DNA of 64,000 nt from Ktedonobacterales bacterium (lineage in GTDB: Bacteria; Chloroflexota; Ktedonobacteria; Ktedonobacterales; DATBGS01), in the NCBI GenBank assembly GCA_036557285.1, contig DATBHW010000040.1:62001-126000 (forward strand), read 5' to 3'. Made by a program: the position numbers and the translations under genes. The notes under the pieces are model-generated. The model made no database searches, was not told the origin of the DNA, and saw only the letters and a program-made list of their open reading frames with translations. Each line of letters starts with the position of its first letter. Position 1 is the first letter of the stretch. Below are positions 38,870-53,461 of this stretch, piece by piece.

Positions 38870-40684
38870 TTAGCTCAGGCAGCGCAGCAGCACCCCTGAT
38901 TCACCAACGGCCCAGACCTCCTGATCGTGGTGGAAAGCCACGCTGTAGAGCGTTTGGGTCGTGGGCGCCGGGCTGCTGGAGGGCGCCCACTGGCCCTTAA
39001 GGAACCGTAAGATAACGCCTCGGCTGCCCACAGCCCAGCCTTCGCCCTGGCTGTTGAAGGCAATAGCGCGCAGGGCGGGGGCATTCACGTCCGGCCCGCG
39101 CACCCAGGATGAGCCAGTGTAATAGAGTAAAGCGCCGCCGTCGCCAACCGCCCAGGCGTCTCCATTCGGAGTGAAGGCCACGCCAAAGAGATCGTTCCAA
39201 TCGGGGGAAGGTTCGTGCAGCCAGAACCCTTCATGGAGGCGTAGAATCAAGCCCTCGCTGCCAACTGCCCACCCCTGACCCTGAGCGTTGACGGCCAGCC
39301 CATAGATGACATGGCGTGTGTGTGTGGCCGCAGGGGTCATGGCTCCATTGTTGAGCGCCAGCATAGCGCCGGAGCTTCCCGCGAGCCAGCCCTCTTTTGG
39401 GCCGCTCAGGGCCAGAGCGTAGTATGAATCGCCGTCAGGTGAAGGAAGCGAGTTCCAGCGTCCCAGGCCATAATGGAGGATAGCGCCCTGGGCGCCAGCG
39501 GCCCAGATATTCTGACCACGCAGGGCGATGGCGTGTAGGGTGTCGGCGGTAGGTGAGGCGAGCGCCACCCAGTTGCCGGTCACGTTGACCAGGATCGTTC
39601 CATTCGCGCCACACGCCGCTAACCCTTCGGCGGCTGTTCCACCCAGCGCATAGAGTGTATGAGTGGTTGGGCTGGGGATGACTTCCCAGGTATGCTGGCG
39701 TCGCGCAGGCGGCGCGGAAGCGAAGATAGGCCGGGTCGGCGTGGCATGAATGGGGCCAGTCATCCCAGGGACTGGCAGGGTAGCGCCGCAGCAATCACAA
39801 AAACCCAAGCCGACTTTGCGGGGTGCTGCGCAGGATGGGCAGGTTGGCCCGCGAAAATATGGTCCGGCAGCCGCGTGACCCCGTTCTAGCTCGCGTTGCA
39901 GGTCCAGAGCCGATTGGTAGCGCGCCTCGGTGTGCATGCTTAACGAGCGCAGGATGATACGGTCCATGCCTGGTGAGATGGCAGGATTGACCTGCTGGGG
40001 AGGGACAAGCGGGTCATTGACTGCGCGCGCGGGCGCATCTGGCGGCACAACGCCAGTCAGCAGGTTGTAGAGTGTGGCCCCCAGGGCGTACATATCGGAA
40101 CGAGCATCAGTCCGGCCACGCCCGTATTGCTCAATGGGCGAAAAGCCATCGGAGACTGCACGAGCGGCCAGCACAGTTTCCTGGGTTGGGTGGTAGACCT
40201 TGGCTAGCCCAAAATCTACCAGCACAGGCTGTCCATTGGTGCGTATTTTAATATTGGCCGGCTTGATGTCTCGATGAATCACTGGAGGCTGGCGAGCGTG
40301 CATCAGAGCAAGCGCGCCGCAAAGCTGCGAAATCCACTGGCGCACCAGCAATTCTGGGAGTGGGCCGTCACGGTTGAGCTGGGTTTCCAGGTCTTCGCCC
40401 TCGATAAACTCCATGACGAGATACAGGCCGCGCTCCTCCTCGAAGTAATCCCAGACTTCAGGAAGATAGGGGTGTTCCAGGCCGGCGAGGATTTCGGCTT
40501 CGAGGCGAAATTGCACCGCAGCCGCGCTGGAGGTGTCGAAGGTTTCTTTCACCGCGCACAGCCGTCTGGCAAGGTGCAGGTCGCGGGCGCGGTAGACCGC
40601 GCCGAAGCCGCCCTCTCCCAGCAGGTCTTCGATGAGATAACGTCCCTGGAGCAGAGCGCCAGGATTCAACGGTTGGTAGCTCAT
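38870..40684 (-). CDS. Ser/Thr protein kinase with zinc ribbon and C-terminal beta-propeller
   Basis: 604 residues. Kinase domain at about 12-270: glycine loop LLGEGGFGAVYRA, Lys in CAVKET, catalytic HRDIKPANIKI, DFGLAKV, and SDMYALGATLY. All catalytic residues are present. A double zinc ribbon follows (CPSCAAPRK...FCDCCGATLP). The last 270 residues contain at least six repeats of the form W-A-V/A-G-x2-G-x-I/L-L, as in photosystem II stability factor YCF48-like or BNR-like propellers. No membrane segment is seen. It lies 81 bases downstream of the PHP gene on the same strand. Confidence 0.93.
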   Translation of the reverse strand: MSYQPLNPGALLQGRYLIEDLLGEGGFGAVYRARDLHLARRLCAVKETFDTSSAAAVQFRLEAEILAGLEHPYLPEVWDYFEEERGLYLVMEFIEGEDLETQLNRDGPLPELLVRQWISQLCGALALMHARQPPVIHRDIKPANIKIRTNGQPVLVDFGLAKVYHPTQETVLAARAVSDGFSPIEQYGRGRTDARSDMYALGATLYNLLTGVVPPDAPARAVNDPLVPPQQVNPAISPGMDRIILRSLSMHTEARYQSALDLQRELERGHAAAGPYFRGPTCPSCAAPRKVGLGFCDCCGATLPVPGMTGPIHATPTRPIFASAPPARRQHTWEVIPSPTTHTLYALGGTAAEGLAACGANGTILVNVTGNWVALASPTADTLHAIALRGQNIWAAGAQGAILHYGLGRWNSLPSPDGDSYYALALSGPKEGWLAGSSGAMLALNNGAMTPAATHTRHVIYGLAVNAQGQGWAVGSEGLILRLHEGFWLHEPSPDWNDLFGVAFTPNGDAWAVGDGGALLYYTGSSWVRGPDVNAPALRAIAFNSQGEGWAVGSRGVILRFLKGQWAPSSSPAPTTQTLYSVAFHHDQEVWAVGESGVLLRCLS

Positions 40685-44459: not shown

Positions 44460-45248
44460 TCAAAAATGCAGGCGGTCCCCGTCAGCGGGAAAGATAATAT
44501 CGCCTGCGAACACCCTGGCGGCTTCGCTGCGGGCCTGCTCGACGTTCCAGCCATCATAGAGGCCCAGGTGAACGAGGGCCAGCGCCCCGGCGTGGGCATT
44601 ATGGGCAAGCTGCCCCGCCTGTCCCGCCGTCATATGCCCAACGCGCTCGGCAGACGTACTCTTGCTATCGAGATAGGTGCATTCTAAAATTAACAGATCA
44701 CACCCCTGGGCGAATGTTTCCAGGGCTTTGATTGGCCTGGTGTCGCTGGAGTAGACAACCGTCCAGGCGCTGCCATCGTCGCGCGGGAAGCTTAGTCGCA
44801 ATCCAGCCGTCGGGATGCTATGCTGCACTGGTATGAAGGAGAAAGCGTTGTCTCCGAAGGGCGGGCAAGCGCCGTCTCCTTCAAGACGCTGGATATTCAA
44901 GGCATAGGGAAGCGGCAAGGGGATCTCAAAGGCAAACGTCTGGAGCAGATGATCGACCACTTCCAGAGTTTCAGGCAGCGCCCAGACCCGCAAGGGGGCG
45001 CGCCGCCCTGAAAGGCGCAGGCATTCCAGCAGCGATGGCAGGCCGCCGATATGATCGATATGGGCATGCGTAATGAAGAGGTCGGTGATCGTCTCAGGCT
45101 GGATATTTGCCCGCAGCAGCCCCTGGAAGACGATTGCGCCACAGTCAATCAACATGCCGGTGCGCCCGTCAAAGATGACAAGCGAGGTATAGCCGCGATC
45201 AGCGGTTGGCACAGCGGCGGCGGTGCCAAGGAATGTGACATCTGGCAT
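44460..45248 (-). CDS. Metallo-beta-lactamase fold hydrolase, RNase Z-like
   Basis: 262 residues from ATG 45248, with GAGGGAA just upstream. The N-terminus is VTFLGTAAAVPTADRGYTS and the zinc motif is FITHAHIDHIGGLPSLL. Later ligands are in PVQHSIPTAGLRL, VYSSDTRP and LALVHLG. The layout matches the RNase Z/arylsulfatase-like MBL group; the His-rich exosite typical of tRNase Z is not obvious, so substrate is uncertain. Longer in-frame starts (to 45593) would read through the divergent mobA region and are rejected. Confidence 0.88.
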   Translation of the reverse strand: MPDVTFLGTAAAVPTADRGYTSLVIFDGRTGMLIDCGAIVFQGLLRANIQPETITDLFITHAHIDHIGGLPSLLECLRLSGRRAPLRVWALPETLEVVDHLLQTFAFEIPLPLPYALNIQRLEGDGACPPFGDNAFSFIPVQHSIPTAGLRLSFPRDDGSAWTVVYSSDTRPIKALETFAQGCDLLILECTYLDSKSTSAERVGHMTAGQAGQLAHNAHAGALALVHLGLYDGWNVEQARSEAARVFAGDIIFPADGDRLHF

Positions 45249-45381
45249 ATGCTTTGCTTTTCCCTCTATACTCCTGTTATTTTCTAGTTGTTGTCCCTTA
45301 TATGCGCTTCCCTGAAGGCGCTCTCCCAAAACTCTATCATAGATGCCCTGGCTGGGGCAAGAAGAATGGGATACTGAACCC

Positions 45382-45993
45382 ATGCTACAGAAGGTAAGCG
45401 GCGCTGTTCTTGCCGGTGGGCAGAGTCGGCGCATGGGAAGCGATAAGGCGGCGCTGCTCATCCAGGGAGAGCCTTTGCTGCGGCGCACGACACGGCTGAT
45501 ACGCGCGATTACACCAGAGGTAGCGATCATTGGATCGCCTGAGCGAGCGGCGCTGGTCCCCGACGTTCCCATTATTCCTGATCGCTGGCCCAATCAGGGA
45601 CCGCTTGGCGGGATTGCCACAGCCCTGCACACACTGGCCGGAGAGGCTGTGCTGGTGGTTGGCTGTGATATGCCTTTCTTGAATCCCGAACTGTTGCGCT
45701 ATTTGATTACGCTGGCTGATGGCTATGATGCGGTGTTGGCGCGGGCTGATGGGAAAGCGCATCCATTACACGCCGTCTATCAACGAGGCTGTTTGCCAGT
45801 AATAGAAGCGCAGCTTCTGGCAGGTGATCTCCGGGTGCAGCGTTTCCTGGCAACGCTTGCGGTTCGTTTTGTGGAAGGCGCTGAGCTTGATCGTTTTGAT
45901 CCCCGGCATCTCTCGATGTTTAACGCGAATACCCCACAGGAGTGGGAACAGGCGCTTCAGATGCTTGCAGAGCATGATAGGCAGAAGGAATAG
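45382..45993 (+). CDS. mobA: Molybdenum cofactor guanylyltransferase
   Basis: 203 residues. MobA attaches GMP to molybdopterin to form the MGD cofactor. The nucleotidyltransferase signature is GAVLAGGQSRRMGSDKAAL. GPLGGIATAL and VVGCDMPFLNPELLRYL (metal-binding Asp) follow, then HPLHAVY and a C-terminal FDPRHLSMFNANTPQEW that is typical of the family. ATG 45382 or 45343 could start it; a TATCAT at about 45335 favours 45382. It implies molybdoenzymes elsewhere in the genome. Confidence 0.93.
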   Translation: MLQKVSGAVLAGGQSRRMGSDKAALLIQGEPLLRRTTRLIRAITPEVAIIGSPERAALVPDVPIIPDRWPNQGPLGGIATALHTLAGEAVLVVGCDMPFLNPELLRYLITLADGYDAVLARADGKAHPLHAVYQRGCLPVIEAQLLAGDLRVQRFLATLAVRFVEGAELDRFDPRHLSMFNANTPQEWEQALQMLAEHDRQKE

Positions 45994-46016: not shown

Positions 46017-48341
46017 TCAGGGGGGCGGGAAAAGACCTCCCTGGAGGAAGCCGAAGGAGCGGTGTGCTAGCGGAGCGCCATCAGCCGGGCGGAAGACAAA
46101 GAGATGATGACGCAGCAGCATACGGGCTACGATGATGCGGCGTTCTGGCGTTTCGGCCAGAAACCAGGTGGATGCGGATTTTGGACGCACGCCTGCTGCG
46201 CTGATCGCGGGATACGCTCGCTGGATGCGTGGATCAGTAGCTGGAATGCTCTGCAACGAGGCGCACAAACGACAGACGCCTTTCGCGCCGCGACATGTTG
46301 AGCAGATTGGCTGGTTACAGATGGCGCAGGCGACGGTGTGATGCTGGCAGTGGCGCTGGCCGCAGATGGCGCACGCGGCCTGGTGCTGCGCACAGAAGAA
46401 CTTCCCATCTACATGACAGGCAACGATGTGCGCGGGACAATGCCGTCGCCCGCAATCACTGCATGTGGTGAGATGGCTGGCAACACAATGGATGCTATTG
46501 CAGGTGGCGCAAGCGCCAGAGCAGGAAGGACAGAACGGCTGCCTGTCAATGCTGCACACCAGGGTATGGTTGCGGCAGGTGGCGCGCCCGCAGGATCGGC
46601 AGTTGGTCAGCCCCTTTGGGCAGGCTAGCTGGTTGCAAACGTTGCAGGGCAGGGCGTGCTTGCGGCAGAGCGGGTGTCCATGACTGACGCAGAGGGCCGC
46701 GCACCCATAGCCTACTGGCTGCTGGCACTCGTGGCAGGTGGTAGTATGCGGCAGGCAATGAGATCGCCCACATTGCGCGCAGGCTTTGACATGGGTTGAG
46801 CAAAAACGATCAGCGCAGCCTGGGGTTGCGCAGCTCTGAAGATGAATATTGCAGTGGTAGCGTCGGCAATTGGGATCGGCGCAACGCGAGGCGCAGGCGC
46901 TGCAAGTGATTTCACCACAGGTGCGACAAAGAACCTGATCTTTGGCGCAGGTCACTTCGTTGCAGCGCGCGCAGCGCACCGCGCAGTTGACGCAGAGCGG
47001 TGTCTGGTCAATATGGCAGGCGAGGGTATGAGTCGGACAACTGGAGCGCCCGCAGGCGGAGCAGGTACGCGCGCAGGTGACGCAGACCGCGCCGTTAGAG
47101 ACAGCGCAGCGCATCCGATGGTCGGAACAGACATGATGCCCGCAATCTTCGGCCTCGATCAGACAGGTATCACAGATCCTCGCGCCGTCAATAGCGCAAG
47201 CGCCCAGCGGATGCTCGCCGCAGCGCCCGTGTCCACAGCTTGTGCATAGCTGGATACACGCCTGACAAACCAGGTGTGGGGTGCGCTCACAGTAACAGAC
47301 CTGGGCCATGATGCCACCACAGGAGCCACAGGCTGGCAACTGATGTGTGCTGCTGAGCGGGTCAACGTCAATGGCGAGCGGCAGCAAGGCGCTCTGGGGG
47401 GCTGCGTGGTCGGCGCTGACGTGGAAGGTGTAGCGATGCAGTGGGCGGAAGATGGTAATCGCCTCTAGCAGACTGGTGCGGACGATGAGGCGATAACGCT
47501 CGCGGGCCATATCCAGCTTGCGCTCTTTTTCAGCCTCCAGTTCTTGCTGCTCCTGCTGCTGGCGTTCTTGTTCGGCTTTTAGCTGGGCGGCTTCTTCCGC
47601 GCTGAGTATGTCGGCGCTGGTGGGATCGGAGGGTGGCAGTGCAGCGGAGGCCGTCGCCGTGTAAAAGGCCCGAACGCGCGCCAGTTCTTCATCAAGGTGC
47701 CGCGAAACGCTTGATTCGATGGCCTGGGCGCGCTGGCGCACCAGCGGCTGAATGGCGTCGAAGGACAGGCGCAAGGCGCTGACTTCATCGATCTGCGCAA
47801 AGATATGCTCGTCAGGTCGCCCTGGCTTTAAGGGCCGCTGAAGCAGTTTATTGAAGTCATCGCTATCGAGTTGAAGGTTCCCGGTAGCCTGGTCAATGCT
47901 GACCTCAAAAATTTGTTCGATCTTTTCATCGGTCAGATAGGTGGTCTTGATAAGAAAGTGGGTGAGCGGCGCGTAACCGGCGATGACCTCGGCTCCGGCT
48001 GCCTGGCATCCGAGCATCGGCAAGGGGCAGGCGAACTGGGTTGGCGGCGTCGGGTCGCGGCTGATGAGCATGATGGTGGCTGCCTGGGCGCGTTTGCGTA
48101 AAACATCGGTTAGCCGATTCAAGAGCGCGCCGCCGATTGTAACCAGTTCGGCGTCGGGATAGTCGGCCTGGGCGTCGCGCTGGAAGGTGAAGAGCAACTG
48201 CTTTTGATTGGCAAAGATGCGCTGGGCGTCAGAGGGAAGGGTAGCCTGATAAATCTCGCGGCTTATTTCTTCGGGCGAAGCGCCAATGGCGCGCAGCCCA
48301 TCCAGAACAAAACTGCGAAGCTGTAGCTGGTTTATTGGCAT
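46017..48341 (-). CDS. Giant Cys/His-rich multi-finger protein, unknown family
   Basis: 774 residues. Residues 1-225 form a globular region with no domain I can name (VLDGLRAIGASPEEISREIY; LVTIGGALLNRLTDVLRKRA). Residues about 245-290 are a Gln/Glu-rich coiled coil. Residues about 338-700 hold a dense array of zinc-binding motifs, with the recurring unit C-x2-C-G-R-x2-C-x2-H-x3-C (CSACGRSSCPTHTLAC, CAQCGRSHCLPHTTTC, CRSCGRATCRNHTLVC, CSDCGRRHCPAHIVAC, CAICGQRHCQHHTVAC). The last 75 residues are less regular. It is the third gene of an operon, 15 bases after the kinase-Snf2 gene. Zinc binding is very likely; whether it binds nucleic acid or protein is unknown. Confidence 0.8.
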   Translation of the reverse strand: MPINQLQLRSFVLDGLRAIGASPEEISREIYQATLPSDAQRIFANQKQLLFTFQRDAQADYPDAELVTIGGALLNRLTDVLRKRAQAATIMLISRDPTPPTQFACPLPMLGCQAAGAEVIAGYAPLTHFLIKTTYLTDEKIEQIFEVSIDQATGNLQLDSDDFNKLLQRPLKPGRPDEHIFAQIDEVSALRLSFDAIQPLVRQRAQAIESSVSRHLDEELARVRAFYTATASAALPPSDPTSADILSAEEAAQLKAEQERQQQEQQELEAEKERKLDMARERYRLIVRTSLLEAITIFRPLHRYTFHVSADHAAPQSALLPLAIDVDPLSSTHQLPACGSCGGIMAQVCYCERTPHLVCQACIQLCTSCGHGRCGEHPLGACAIDGARICDTCLIEAEDCGHHVCSDHRMRCAVSNGAVCVTCARTCSACGRSSCPTHTLACHIDQTPLCVNCAVRCARCNEVTCAKDQVLCRTCGEITCSACASRCADPNCRRYHCNIHLQSCATPGCADRFCSTHVKACAQCGRSHCLPHTTTCHECQQPVGYGCAALCVSHGHPLCRKHALPCNVCNQLACPKGLTNCRSCGRATCRNHTLVCSIDRQPFCPSCSGACATCNSIHCVASHLTTCSDCGRRHCPAHIVACHVDGKFFCAQHQAACAICGQRHCQHHTVACAICNQPICSTCRGAKGVCRLCASLQSIPATDPRIQRAYPAISAAGVRPKSASTWFLAETPERRIIVARMLLRHHLFVFRPADGAPLAHRSFGFLQGGLFPPP

Positions 48342-48356
48342 AGCGTCGGTTGCCTC

Positions 48357-51026
48357 TTACCCTTCAAATATGTCGTTAATGGCTGCTGCGCCGCGCATGG
48401 ATTGCTCGAAGTCGCTGCGGGCCTGGGCCAGTTTGCTGCCGATTTTGGCGAGCGCGTCGGCCTGCGCGTGAGGGTCGGGGTATTTCAGCCAGAGTTCCCA
48501 TAGCTCGCGCTCAAAGTTAAAGCTCTCATCCATCTCGTCCAACACCATGCCGAGTTCGCCTACCTCCAACTCGAAGAGCCGCAGATAGTGGCGATACAGC
48601 TGCAACAGTTGTTCGGCATAGGTTCCCTGGGAGACGAGCGAATAGATAGAGACATCATAAAGCTGTCCGAGACGATGGACGCGCCCGATACGCTGCTCCA
48701 GCCGCGTGGGATCCCAAGGAATGTCGTAATTGATGACCAGATGGCAAAATTGCAGGTTCAGGCTTTCTTCTACAGGTCGCCCGGCCAACAGAACGCCGCG
48801 CTTGCCCTGGCGAAACTGCTTGAGGGCCTCGCGCCGATCTCGCTCCTGAAGATAGAGCGTCACATCAATGGGCGGGTTGGAAAGGAGCAAGAAACTGTGC
48901 AGGCGCTGGGCTGTTGCGGGATGCTCGACATAGACGATCACGCGATCATCCAGCCGCCGCAAGAGATCGCGCAGCGCAACCTCTTTCGCGTCAATGCCTG
49001 GCTTGCGTACTGCTTCCAACACGTGCTGCCAGTGTGGTTGTTCGCGCAGCGTCTGGCGGGCCTCCAAAAAATCGCGCACGGCCTGGCGGCTGACGCATGC
49101 CGCCTGCAACAGGGGCCGATAGGTGCTGATCCGCTCCCAGTTGTTCGAGAGATGGCCGCCGGTGCAATCATAGCGGATCGCCTGCTCTACCAGAGCATAG
49201 CAGCGCAACTCCTCTCCTTGCAGGGCAATTGGCTGATGCGCTATCTCGCGTTTCTGAGGGAAGCGGATGGTGCTGTCGCGCCGCCGGTTGCGAATCATGA
49301 CCTCGGCCAGCACCGTTTTAAGTTCCTGGCGTTTCTGCGTTTTGTCGGGAGAACGGCTGTCGGCGTAGTGCTGCAAGAAGTCCTGGCGGCTGCGGAACTG
49401 TCCGGGCCGAACGAGCGTCACCAGCGAGAAGAGTTCGCCCAGATGTGCCCGAATAGGCGTGGCCGTCAGGAGCAGCATGTATTTGCGCTGGAGAGCATTG
49501 ACGAAGTGCCAGGTGGCATTAGGTTCGCCAGATTTCTTATAGAGCCGGTGCGCTTCATCCACGATGATGAGATCAAAGGTTTTGCCGATAAAATGATTTC
49601 TGCGCTTGGGCTGGCGCGCGGTGTCCATACTGACGATGACGCGCTCGGATGGACGCCACTTGCGCTTCGAGTCGTAGACGGTGAAATGTTCGTTGATCTT
49701 TTCCTGCATCTCTTGCTGCCATTGGTCAGTGGAGCCTGGACGGACCAGGACGAGGACGCTGCGCACCAGTCCGCGCACGACCAGTTCTTTCAGGACCATT
49801 CCGGCCTCGATAGTCTTGCCCAGCCCTACCTCGTCGGCAAAGATGCCATTGCCGCGCATCTCACGCAGCATCTTGAGTACCGCGTTGTGCTGGTGCGCGT
49901 AGGTATCAATATTGAGCGCGTCCAGGGCGATCAGGCCATCTTCAAAGCCGCGATCCAGGGCTAGCCGTTCACCTTCGGCGCGAAGCAGCAAAAGCTTCAG
50001 GGGAGCCGTTGCTGGCAGGCGCAGACGACTCAGGACAGGGTGATTTTCGATGCGATCTTGCTCAAATTCGGTTGGGCGCAGTTCAACGGAGCGATGCGAG
50101 GTAACAGTGCTTTGCGCGCGCTGTCCTGGCGTCAGGCTATCGCGGCGGGCGCCGCAGATTGGGCAGAAGCGCGCCCCTGGTCTGGTGAGGGTACCGCAGG
50201 TCGTACAAACTTGATCGAGCGTCTGAAGCGCTTCCAGCATCTGAGGAATGCCCGCGTAGCGTCTGGATGGGTCGAAGGCGGTGGCGCGGCGCAGGAGCGC
50301 CCCCAATGCCGGGCTGATCATCCCCTGTGGCCCAGCCAGCGGCGTTCCTGGCGGAAAACTATCAATAGTGTGTCCGGTGAGCAGGTAGGTGAGGGTAGCG
50401 CCCAGCCCGAAAACATCGGTACTTTCGCTAACCGCGTGCGCTTGCTCAGGGGCGGCAAAGCCGGGCGTGCCGAGCCGCAGGGATGGGGCCTCAGCGGCGC
50501 CGTTGCGCAGCGCCCGCGCTGAGCCAAAGTCTATCAGGAACAGGCGGCCATCGGTGGTGCGCATAATGTTCTGTGGCTTGAGGTCGGCGTAGATGAAGCG
50601 CACGCCGTCGGCATCGGGGCGATGCAGATAGGCCAGGACATCCGCGAGGTCAGCCGCCCAGGCCAGTGCCGTTTTTTCGGAGGCGCAGGCCGCGCCTCCG
50701 CCGATCAGCGTATCGAGGGTTTGTCCATCGAGGTAATCGAGAACCAGATACAGCGAGCCGTCGCCTTCGAAATGTTCGCCCAGGCGCGGCAGCGCGCGAT
50801 GTTTGCGGCGGAGCAAGACCTCGATCTCGCTGCTCCATTGCTCGCGGGCCTCGGCCTGATTACCGGACGTGGCAGGATAGACTTTAATCGCCCAGGCTTT
50901 GCCGGTAATGCGGCGATCTATAGCCCGATAGAGGGCGGCCTGCCCTCCAGTGGCAAGCTGCTGCTCCACCTGATAGCGCCCGCCTAACAATTGTCCAACG
51001 GTTAGTACGCTTGTCACGCTGTCCAC
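48357..51026 (-). CDS. Ser/Thr kinase fused to a RapA/HepA-like Snf2 ATPase
   Basis: 889 residues from GTG 51026 (AGAGG four bases upstream). Residues about 12-265 are a protein kinase: LATGGQAALYRA, AIKVYP, catalytic loop YADLKPQN at about 145 and DFGSARA at about 165. The usual HRD is YAD, so catalytic Asp, Lys and Asn are kept but the Arg is lost. A zinc ribbon (CTTCGTLTRPGARFCPICG) lies at about 274-290. From about 370 to 870 is a Snf2-type helicase: ADEVGLGKTIEAGMVLKEL (395), DEAH (489), LLTATPIRAHLGELFSL, and motif VI RLEQRIGRVHRLGQ (779). Such ATPases move along DNA or recycle RNA polymerase. Flanked by a kinase-PQQ gene and the multi-finger gene in one operon. Confidence 0.92.
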   Translation of the reverse strand: MDSVTSVLTVGQLLGGRYQVEQQLATGGQAALYRAIDRRITGKAWAIKVYPATSGNQAEAREQWSSEIEVLLRRKHRALPRLGEHFEGDGSLYLVLDYLDGQTLDTLIGGGAACASEKTALAWAADLADVLAYLHRPDADGVRFIYADLKPQNIMRTTDGRLFLIDFGSARALRNGAAEAPSLRLGTPGFAAPEQAHAVSESTDVFGLGATLTYLLTGHTIDSFPPGTPLAGPQGMISPALGALLRRATAFDPSRRYAGIPQMLEALQTLDQVCTTCGTLTRPGARFCPICGARRDSLTPGQRAQSTVTSHRSVELRPTEFEQDRIENHPVLSRLRLPATAPLKLLLLRAEGERLALDRGFEDGLIALDALNIDTYAHQHNAVLKMLREMRGNGIFADEVGLGKTIEAGMVLKELVVRGLVRSVLVLVRPGSTDQWQQEMQEKINEHFTVYDSKRKWRPSERVIVSMDTARQPKRRNHFIGKTFDLIIVDEAHRLYKKSGEPNATWHFVNALQRKYMLLLTATPIRAHLGELFSLVTLVRPGQFRSRQDFLQHYADSRSPDKTQKRQELKTVLAEVMIRNRRRDSTIRFPQKREIAHQPIALQGEELRCYALVEQAIRYDCTGGHLSNNWERISTYRPLLQAACVSRQAVRDFLEARQTLREQPHWQHVLEAVRKPGIDAKEVALRDLLRRLDDRVIVYVEHPATAQRLHSFLLLSNPPIDVTLYLQERDRREALKQFRQGKRGVLLAGRPVEESLNLQFCHLVINYDIPWDPTRLEQRIGRVHRLGQLYDVSIYSLVSQGTYAEQLLQLYRHYLRLFELEVGELGMVLDEMDESFNFERELWELWLKYPDPHAQADALAKIGSKLAQARSDFEQSMRGAAAINDIFEG

Positions 51027-51069
51027 GCATCCTCTTCGTATAGACTCATGCCTGCGGCGCTCTGGCGGC

Positions 51070-53208
51070 TCATGGCTGGCCCTCCAGCAGACAGACACTC
51101 CCCTGGCGTGTGCCAACTACGCAGCAGACGCCAGAGACGGCTGGCGAAGCGAACACCGGCGCGCTCAGCGCAAGCTGAAAGCCGACCTTGCCGGTATTGG
51201 CGTCCATCAGCGAGACAGTGCCATCGGTATCAATCACCAGCAGCGCCGCGCCGCAGAGAATGGGAGATGCGGCAAGCTGCCCCATTGTCCTGGTGGTCCA
51301 CAAGCGATTGCCATTATCGCGGCTGAGCGCAAAAACAGCTCCCTCCTGTCCGGCGGCGAAAGCTCTATCGCTGGTCAGGATCGGTGACGCGCTGATCGGG
51401 ACGCCAAGGGAACGCTGCCAAAGGCGCTCGCCGGTGCGAATATCCAGCAGCGCGACACTGCCATCCAGGGCGGCGACAAGCGCCAGCCCATCATGGCAGG
51501 CGGGTGTCGCGCGCACCTGGCCGGAAGCCTGAAAGGTCCATTGCAGTTTGCCGCTGGCAATGTCCAGCCCCTTGATCTGGCCGGGGCCATTGGCGACAAT
51601 CACCAGATTGTTCAATAGTGCTGGCGAGGCGTAGAAAGGGCTGCCATCCACATGCTCCCAGATAATTTCGCCGCTCGTAGGGTTCAGGGCGACGATGCGC
51701 CCGGCCTGGGTGGCGCTGATGATAAGGCCAGCGCCCGCGGCTGCCGAGGCGAAGATTTTACCGCGCAGCGGGACACGCCAGCGGGCTGTCCCACCAACGC
51801 TTTGTACAGCGTGCATCGTTCCATTATCGTCGCCAAAGAAGAGCGTGTCTCCATGCAGCGTGGGCGTGCTGCGCAGCGGCGCGCCAGCGTTATAACGCCA
51901 CAGTTCGCGCTGGCTCTGGGCATCTAGAGCATAGAGGTAGTGATTGCGTGAGCCGACATAGACCATCCCGTTATGAATGATTGGTGAGCCATCAACCGCG
52001 CCCTGCAACTGAAAGCTCCAGGTCTGCTTCAGGGGTGGACGCAGGATGTCTGTCGTGACGCCTGCGCGGGCGGCGCTGCCGCGAAAACTGCCCCAGTTCT
52101 GAGGTTGGCGCGGCGGCGCTGCCTGCTGTGGCGCTGTTTGGAGTGTGAGCGGCTTCCCGCAGGCCCGGCAGCGCGCGGCTGAGGATGGGTTTGCTGCCTG
52201 GCAGTGCGGGCAGGGCAGGGTTTGTTGAGCCGCGCCTAGATTGCGCAACTCGTCCAGCATCGCGCGAGCCGAAGGATAGCGCTCCTCAACCAGCACGCGC
52301 GTGGCCTGCGCTAAGATCGCCTCCATCTCTGCTGATACGTGGGGATTCGTGTCGCGGGCGGGCGGGAAGCTCACCCCTTTGCGCCATTGAAGATTGATGT
52401 CGAAAATATTGAGCAGTTGGGGGTCACTGGCGGTCAGGGCAAAATAGAGCGTGGCCCCCAGGGCGTAGAGGTCGGAGCGCGGCTCGGTGCGCCCGGCCTT
52501 TTGCTCCGGTGGCAGATAACCCCAGGTACCCATCTTCGTAGTGTCATGTCGGCCAGCTTCATAGCGGCGGGCGATGCCGAAATCAACGAGGACGGCGCTG
52601 CCCTCCGGTGTGATAATCACGTTATCGGGCTTGATGTCGCGGTGAATGATGGGCGGCTGCTGGCTGTGAATATAGACCAGCGCGTCGCAGAGATCGATCC
52701 CCCAGCGGGCTACGTCGCGCTCTGAAGCCTGGCCTTGCTGCTCAATCAAGTCCTGAAGGGCGACGCCTTCGATGAAGTCCGATACCAGATAATGCGCGCC
52801 GTTCTCGCTGAAGGCGTCCCAACACGCCGGAAGACTCGGGTGGCGAAGCTGTGCGAGCAGCGCGGCTTCGCGCTGGAAGAGGGCTTCATCGAGGTCCGGG
52901 TCGGGTCGAAGCTGCTTGATAACACACGGCTGCTGCCCGCGACGGCTATCACAGGCGCGGAAGATCAGCCCCATGCCGCCGCGATCAGAGAGCGGCAAGA
53001 CATCGGTATAGCGTCCGCCGCACAGACCCATTGCTGGAGCCAGCGGCGCCTGTATGAGGGGTCCGTTCGTGTCGGCGGCTGGGGCCGGAATGCTCGCCTG
53101 TGGAGCGCCAACGACTGACGCGCCGCATTTGACACAAAAGCGGGCGGTTGATGGAGCAATGTAGCCGCAGCCAGGGCAATAGACATAGGAGCGATTCGAG
53201 GCTTGCAT
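51070..53208 (-). CDS. Ser/Thr kinase with flanking zinc ribbons and a PQQ-type beta-propeller
   Basis: 712 residues from ATG 53208. Zinc ribbon at the N-terminus (YCPGCGYIAPSTARFCVKCG). Kinase at about 65-330 with LSDRGGMGLIFRA, CVIKQL, HRDIKPDNVII, DFGIARR and SDLYALGATLY; all catalytic residues are intact. A second zinc ribbon follows (CPHCQAANPSSAARCRACG). The C-terminal 330 residues have at least six PQQ/Pyrrolo-quinoline-like blades (GMVYVGSRNHYLYALDA, LFFGDDNGTMHAVQ, AFAAGQEGAVFALS). No membrane helix, so the propeller is probably cytoplasmic and non-enzymatic. First gene of the three-gene operon. Confidence 0.94.
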   Translation of the reverse strand: MQASNRSYVYCPGCGYIAPSTARFCVKCGASVVGAPQASIPAPAADTNGPLIQAPLAPAMGLCGGRYTDVLPLSDRGGMGLIFRACDSRRGQQPCVIKQLRPDPDLDEALFQREAALLAQLRHPSLPACWDAFSENGAHYLVSDFIEGVALQDLIEQQGQASERDVARWGIDLCDALVYIHSQQPPIIHRDIKPDNVIITPEGSAVLVDFGIARRYEAGRHDTTKMGTWGYLPPEQKAGRTEPRSDLYALGATLYFALTASDPQLLNIFDINLQWRKGVSFPPARDTNPHVSAEMEAILAQATRVLVEERYPSARAMLDELRNLGAAQQTLPCPHCQAANPSSAARCRACGKPLTLQTAPQQAAPPRQPQNWGSFRGSAARAGVTTDILRPPLKQTWSFQLQGAVDGSPIIHNGMVYVGSRNHYLYALDAQSQRELWRYNAGAPLRSTPTLHGDTLFFGDDNGTMHAVQSVGGTARWRVPLRGKIFASAAAGAGLIISATQAGRIVALNPTSGEIIWEHVDGSPFYASPALLNNLVIVANGPGQIKGLDIASGKLQWTFQASGQVRATPACHDGLALVAALDGSVALLDIRTGERLWQRSLGVPISASPILTSDRAFAAGQEGAVFALSRDNGNRLWTTRTMGQLAASPILCGAALLVIDTDGTVSLMDANTGKVGFQLALSAPVFASPAVSGVCCVVGTRQGSVCLLEGQP

Positions 53209-53277: not shown

Positions 53278-53307
53278 AGTATATCGCGGCTCTCGGCTTG
53301 CTGTAAA
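53278..53307 (-). promoter_or_regulatory. Predicted promoter of the kinase/Snf2/multi-finger operon
   Basis: On the minus strand TTTACA (53307-53302), an 18-base spacer and TATACT (53283-53278). Predicted start is near 53271, about 60 bases before the ATG at 53208. Confidence 0.5.
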
Positions 53308-53352: not shown

Positions 53353-53461
53353 TTGTAGCGCCGCCATCTTGGCGGCTAACGCTTCGCCAGGGCGAACGTT
53401 CGCCCTCCAGGCCACCGGACCAGCAGGCCAGCGTTGAGCCGCCTGGAAGGCGGCGCTACAA
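53353..53461. repeat. Palindromic intergenic repeat (REP/MITE-like)
   Basis: Perfect 13-bp inverted repeats end the unit: TTGTAGCGCCGCC (53353-53365) and its complement (53449-53461). Inside are a GCCGCC/GGCGGC hairpin, a perfect 16-bp palindrome GGGCGAACGTTCGCCC (53390-53405), and a second GCCGCC/GGCGGC hairpin with a TGGAA-type loop. The 109-base block looks like a dispersed structured repeat; other copies cannot be checked here. It sits between a convergent-free gap and the kinase operon promoter. Confidence 0.65.

Follow-up and report, generated by a model that had tools for sequence, protein, structure and literature searches.

A probable two-chain Swi2/Snf2 motor of the RapA type, headed by a protein kinase, in a Ktedonobacterales bacterium

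The N-terminal domain of Escherichia coli RapA (HepA) is autoinhibitory and is opened by the zinc-binding domain of the RNA polymerase beta-prime subunit (PMC8501970, PMC8666675). In RapA and BrxHII, the C-terminal half begins with a restriction-endonuclease fold that is inactive; next comes a sheet of five strands, the last of which is preceded by a pair of long inserted helices. This combination of folds is confined to these helicases (PMC12839542, 2026). N-terminal modules are swapped among BrxHII and the BREX-related helicases, and those of Type-2 BREX-related systems carry a nuclease in place of the N-terminal Tudor (PMC12839542). In Bacilli, a short Snf2 ATPase gene, yqhH, is followed by a partner gene, yqhG. 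In vitro, the product of Bacillus thuringiensis yqhH acted as an ATPase and a helicase, and the gene was needed for normal UV survival (PMC10054049). HepA/YqhH of B. subtilis is counted among the RNA polymerase-interacting translocases, partly by analogy with E. coli (PMC7385302).

The window analyzed here was a stretch of 64,000 nucleotides from a Ktedonobacterales bacterium (GCA_036557285.1, contig DATBHW010000040.1, positions 62,001 to 126,000). The ORF coordinates confirmed what an earlier note on this DNA had described, namely three minus-strand genes with intergenic gaps of 43 (gene 1/gene 2) and 15 bases (gene 2/gene 3). Pfam domains and residue counts likewise bore out its account of the products as a kinase-PQQ protein, a kinase-Snf2 protein and a 774-residue protein with a Cys/His array. 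The genes and the promoter-like site were located as follows.

53278..53307, minus strand: promoter-like site TTTACA-18-TATACT, 70 bases upstream of ATG 53208 of gene 1
51070..53208, minus strand: gene 1, 712 aa from ATG 53208; the open frame extends to 53331
48357..51026, minus strand: gene 2, 889 aa from GTG 51026; the open frame extends to 51116
46017..48341, minus strand: gene 3, 774 aa, YqhG-superfamily partner subunit with a zinc array

An AAGAGG Shine-Dalgarno-like motif was found upstream of gene 2 and of gene 3. The earlier note had placed the three genes behind a single predicted promoter; a site was present before gene 1, but it was weak evidence because the scan returned 6 promoter-like sites against 1.9 +/- 1.8 expected by chance. 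Genes 2 and 3, and probably gene 1 with them, would be co-transcribed. No further same-strand gene follows gene 3, since a convergent mobA-like gene abuts its end. The genes flanking the three were housekeeping genes (ispG, rseP, dxr, cdsA, uppS, a LytR-family gene, the mobA-like gene and others).

A 19-codon minus-strand ORF at 51073-51014 has an ATG that overlaps the gene 1 stop and a TGA that overlaps a possible gene 2 GTG start at 51017, and coupling of gene 1 and gene 2 translation by this ORF is possible. A palindromic REP-like element (TTGTAGCGCCGCC-N5-GGCGGC) was seen upstream of gene 1 at 53353-53461, with inverted half-sites at 53353-53365 (plus) and 53449-53461 (minus); the pattern occurred 409 times in the 5.1 Mb genome and a reversed control gave 0 matches. 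The MBL-fold protein encoded at 44460-45593 on the minus strand is probably an ordinary metallo-hydrolase; it resembled anti-Pycsar Apyc1 weakly and did not reach the cut-off (E 0.0018).

The domain order of gene 2 in Pfam was Pkinase (7e-30), zinc ribbon, SNF2-rel_dom (5e-30) and Helicase_C (1e-17).

50241..50999, minus strand: N-terminal kinase, about aa 10-262, with YAD (YADLKPQN) and DFG catalytic motifs
50148..50210, minus strand: zinc ribbon, aa 273-293, CTTC...CPIC (Zn_Ribbon_1 3e-5)
48357..50045, minus strand: Swi2/Snf2 core, with DEVGLGKT, DEAH, TATP and QRIGRVHRLGQ all present

The kinase is of the non-RD type, the arginine of HRD being replaced and DFG present. Snf2 motifs I-III and VI were present in the ATPase core. 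Motif V had drifted (ESLNLQ), and the core sat on a very long branch of the tree (2.36 changes per site), too long for a firm placement; for both reasons the ATPase activity may differ. The closest solved relative of the core was RapA (profile E 3.8e-75), and the NCBIfam RapA model gave 159.7 bits, below its cut-off of 576. The aligned cores stopped at about RapA residue 634, and gene 2 ended after the ATPase core, without a Spacer or C-terminal domain. No Tudor-like autoinhibitory domain was recognized by Pfam at the N-terminus of gene 2; unlike in RapA, this position is held by the Ser/Thr kinase and the zinc ribbon, a feature that looks new. The kinase and the ATPase are joined in frame and at a domain boundary, exactly where RapA carries its regulatory domain. 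The reading frame was unbroken across the join, and third-position GC was uniform in the two parts (0.69 and 0.71).

Of the 227 loci that carried an Snf2 ORF, the window's alone had the kinase-Snf2 fusion (duplicate copies of it counted as the same gene). The search covered 46 other genomes of the window's order, none from its own family. Across 400 genomes of the phylum, the best long match of the gene 2 Snf2 part had ~37% identity. The nearest relatives were stand-alone, kinase-free Snf2 ORFs of ~580-720 residues, and the N-termini of the relatives' ATPases were short or unassigned extensions, with TPR repeats in one case.

From sequence profiles and a predicted structure, residues 1-310 of gene 3 appear to be the C-terminal half of RapA that is missing from gene 2, encoded as a separate chain. 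The segments of gene 3 were as follows.

48012..48341, minus strand: aa 1-110, alpha/beta domain matching the RapA Spacer (RapA about 709-800) by AlphaFold model, Foldseek and profiles
47412..48011, minus strand: middle segment, AlphaFold model pLDDT mostly 85-98
46242..47336, minus strand: Cys/His array, aa 336-700, with 70 Cys, 27 His and ~20 CxxC pairs

Gene 3 as a whole contained 72 Cys and 37 His in 774 aa and had no match in Pfam. Its AlphaFold model, built on a 43-sequence alignment, was confident at residues 1-365 (pLDDT ~80-98 in most blocks) and poor over the Cys array. When this model was compared with the PDB by Foldseek, the only significant matches were three E. coli RapA entries, 8t0l (E 6.8e-8), 8spg and 8so8, with a probability of 1.00. 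The superposition with RapA over the whole chain had a low TM-score and a high rmsd, indicating that the two proteins agree only domain by domain; the TM-scores were low because the gene 3 model is long and partly disordered and because domain orientations may differ. Run against all ORFs of the collected loci, the gene-3-family profile matched residues 714-923 of E. coli RapA (E 5.3e-5). Against the single RapA sequence, family columns 4-275 aligned to about RapA 709-952 (E 6e-5), and sequence identity between gene 3 and RapA was ~14%. Comparison by hhalign with RapA-type C-tails other than that of RapA gave mixed results, with probabilities of 0.2-80%. Only two PADLOC models touched gene 3, both weakly and each through the C-terminal part of a RapA-like helicase: 702-780 of BrxHII and 889-1030 of DrmD.

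The gene 3 model begins with the alpha/beta region (1-110), continues with strands at 113-136, 140-150, 155-157 and 171-173, and then has two helices (186-234 and 248-282) and a strand at 286-308. This order of elements agrees with the published C-terminal anatomy of RapA and BrxHII (PMC12839542). The predicted alpha/beta region matches a degenerate, inactive restriction-endonuclease-like Spacer fold.

The earlier note saw gene 3 as dominated by its Cys/His array. The array was present, but the core of the protein is its RapA-like N-terminal half. A novel zinc-finger family was ruled out on the same ground and because the array varies among relatives. Some relatives from the same order had ~45-48 Cys, others ~19 and others none. 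The shared core was followed by long Cys arrays (gene 3 and L063-L066, from the same order), shorter zinc arrays, Mrr-like domains or nothing, suggesting that the array is a variable add-on, swapped for other C-termini in relatives. Mrr-like C-termini took its place in L068, L070, L071 and L075, with Mrr_cat (PF04471) matching 4 of the 18 alignment members (best 1.7e-5). No clear catalytic motif was visible by eye in these domains, which are probably inactive as nucleases.

The gene 3 family of Chloroflexota and YqhG of Bacilli were homologous over the whole length of the partner (hhalign probability 99.1, E 2e-18, 251 columns). A 42-sequence profile built without gene 3 recovered it (E 3e-19) and none of the window's other ORFs. 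The Pfam YqhG model (PF11079) matched neither gene 3 nor any sequence in a search of the window's order. In the 18-member Chloroflexota alignment it matched 3 sequences (best 3e-4), and in a wider set that included Bacilli 12 of 43; the model is too narrow. A single-sequence structure model of Bacillus YqhG reached a pLDDT of 36, too low for use. No relatives of gene 3 were found in the viral structure library or in viral contigs. The window thus holds the parts of a YqhH-YqhG-type unit, a short Snf2 ATPase followed after 15 bases by a YqhG-superfamily partner. The pairs of Bacilli differ in having neither a kinase nor a zinc-finger array.

Downstream of most stand-alone Snf2 relatives lay a gene of 320-770 residues, and several of these were recognized as homologues by gene 3. 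A scan of named genomes returned 80 further loci. The closest, mostly at 32-38% identity, came from Bacillus, Paenibacillus, Cyanobacteria, Actinomycetota, Pseudomonadota, Planctomycetota, haloarchaea and others, and here again a gene-3 homologue followed the short Snf2 ATPase. The Snf2 ORFs, which were gathered by similarity search and are not a random sample, were sorted as short or long by the length of the tail beyond the ATPase core. Among short ATPases with readable downstream DNA, the partner was adjacent in 78 and within 1.5 kb in 4. Five short ORFs were first scored as partnerless; three of them (L054, L086 and L060, L086 being the same contig sequence as L054) have the partner in an overlapping frame, and L061 and L074 are true exceptions. 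Four more short ORFs ran into a contig end. Seventeen long ORFs were classed, 1 of them near a contig end, and a gene-3 partner was found in 0 of the other 16, which include a fused, internally deleted remnant of the pair (L062). In genome G110, the Snf2 gene (L074:8954-10963) and a gene-3 relative (L076:8676-9689) were at separate loci, as they were in its relatives.

The contrast between short and long ORFs was sharp, and it indicates that the partner gene is present where the ATPase is without a C-terminal half of its own. By these comparisons, the gene 2-gene 3 pairing is a widespread unit in Bacteria and Archaea that includes yqhH-yqhG of Bacillus, and gene 1 stands outside it. The locus had been put forward as an undescribed three-gene operon, which did not hold. 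Short relatives of gene 2 were almost always followed by a relative of gene 3, but a kinase gene stood beside only one relative pair (L070).

We consider it probable (roughly 0.6) that genes 2 and 3 encode a kinase-gated Swi2/Snf2 motor of the RapA type, divided into two chains. Sequence and fold comparison shows that the two genes correspond to the two halves of RapA. Gene 2 supplies the ATPase core and gene 3 supplies in trans the Spacer and the C-terminal alpha+beta domain, which RapA carries in cis on one chain; the large Cys/His array is an addition that RapA does not have. Homology and near-constant adjacency suggest that the two chains assemble into a RapA-like particle. Such a particle may translocate on DNA and remove or recycle stalled or post-termination RNA polymerase, a role to which the findings on Bacillus YqhH (PMC7385302, PMC10054049) lend indirect support. 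The zinc array of gene 3 may give it a further surface that touches nucleic acid or polymerase. The kinase and zinc ribbon of gene 2 may stand in for the autoinhibitory N-terminal domain of RapA. Judging from their position and the intact motifs, a phosphorylation signal would gate the ATPase, instead of or besides gating by polymerase docking. Gating could proceed by autophosphorylation, by phosphorylation of gene 3 or RNA polymerase, or with the propeller-kinase of gene 1 upstream; a place for gene 1 upstream of gene 2 is speculative. The earlier suggestion of a signal-controlled nucleic-acid or RNA-polymerase remodeller of the RapA/HepA type fits the finding that gene 3 corresponds to the C-terminal half of RapA. 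The most likely targets of the motor are transcription complexes, and phage defence is the less likely role, because the flanks are housekeeping genes and another Snf2 ATPase lies beside the DUF499 gene of this genome.

A larger assembly, in which all three genes form one dedicated signalling machine and ligand sensing by the propeller-kinase leads it to phosphorylate the kinase-Snf2 protein, would extend the kinase-gated motor rather than oppose it, and we regard it as possible but doubtful. The tight spacing, the common strand, the Shine-Dalgarno-like motifs and the kinases with zinc ribbons in both gene 1 and gene 2 are consistent with it. Gene 1 has the order zinc ribbon, Pkinase (5e-33), zinc ribbon and PQQ propeller (1e-51) in Pfam, and the HRD and DFG motifs of its Ser/Thr kinase are intact. 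It shares the layout of kinase and PQQ-type beta-propeller with AfsK-type kinases but differs in the zinc ribbons that flank the kinase, and the NCBIfam AfsK model gave 132.5 bits against a cut-off of 1300. Another minus-strand kinase with a BNR-type propeller match (PF14870) was seen at 38870-40684, less than 10 kb away. Against the larger assembly, no relative of gene 1 was found beside the examined pairs except one divergent kinase gene, and the promoter evidence was weak. The exception (L070:6313-7710, minus strand) is a stand-alone kinase gene of 465 aa upstream of the Snf2 gene, and it is likely a chance neighbor because kinase density is high (~55 kinase matches across the 5.1 Mb draft genome). 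A conserved three-gene operon was rejected on present data, the kinase-PQQ gene not being kept beside the pair in relatives.

A role in defence, with the split motor working like BrxHII, DrmD or the BREX-related helicases and the kinase serving as signal or effector, is unlikely. These helicases have RapA-like C-terminal domains, to which the weak PADLOC matches on gene 3 correspond, and the Snf2 part of gene 2 scored on the DpdE, DrmD and BrxHII models. The nuclease that replaces the Tudor in Type-2 BREX-related helicases (PMC12839542) parallels the kinase seen here. However, all defence models were far below their curated cut-offs (DrmD 179.2 of 610 and 166.8 of 950 bits, DpdE 186 of 500), and no DrmD match of the strength that marks DISARM was found. 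BrxHII, the BREX-related helicases and DrmD also differ in being long one-chain proteins whose defence loci include a methylase and an ATPase as partners. No DUF499/BrxC ATPase with a methyltransferase, as expected of BREX type 3 or BREX-related systems, was found near the window genes. The genome's DUF499 gene is on contig 12, close to an Snf2 ORF of 1153 residues, showing that the window pair is not the helicase of that locus. No defence core gene was found near the six Chloroflexota pairs scanned, whose neighbors were metabolic or transport genes, MBL-fold proteins, a transposase or unassigned ORFs, and in Bacilli the pair was chromosomal across many genera. A defence island at this locus was therefore not supported, the housekeeping flanks included. 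The phage-defence idea of the earlier note is weakened by these observations. Yet on two haloarchaeal plasmids (L163 and L164) the neighbor of the split pair is a gene for DUF499, the ATPase at the core of BREX-related systems (PMC12839542), which suggests use in such systems. The pair was found on cyanobacterial plasmids as well, and from both occurrences some members of the family may serve defence.

Also unlikely is the explanation that genes 2 and 3 are an ordinary housekeeping ATPase of the YqhH-YqhG kind, to which the spread of kinase genes added the fusion and gene 1 without any regulatory role: the kinase might be merely a passenger domain in a kinase-rich genome, the fusion was seen once and gene 1 is not kept next to the pair in relatives, but the catalytic motifs are intact in the kinases of both genes, and the uninterrupted frame, the even third-position GC and the placing of the join at RapA's regulatory-domain position speak against an incidental origin.

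What is new in the kinase-gated, two-chain motor proposed here is the split-RapA identity of the pair and its kinase-headed variant, not the combination of three genes. No prior description of YqhG-type proteins as the C-terminal half of RapA in trans was found in the literature searched, the coverage of which was incomplete. We tentatively suggest, at somewhat less than even odds for the whole, that this is a RapA-type motor whose autoinhibitory domain has been exchanged for a kinase, with Ser/Thr phosphorylation switching polymerase recycling, and that the YqhG family is the RapA C-terminal half as a separate subunit in Bacteria and Archaea. YqhG (PF11079, 'unknown function') would thereby gain a testable molecular identity, the RapA C-terminal half acting in trans, and so would many 'hypothetical proteins' beside short Snf2 ATPases in more than 10 phyla. 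The natural exchange of an autoinhibitory domain for a kinase could show how motors of the RapA type are switched.
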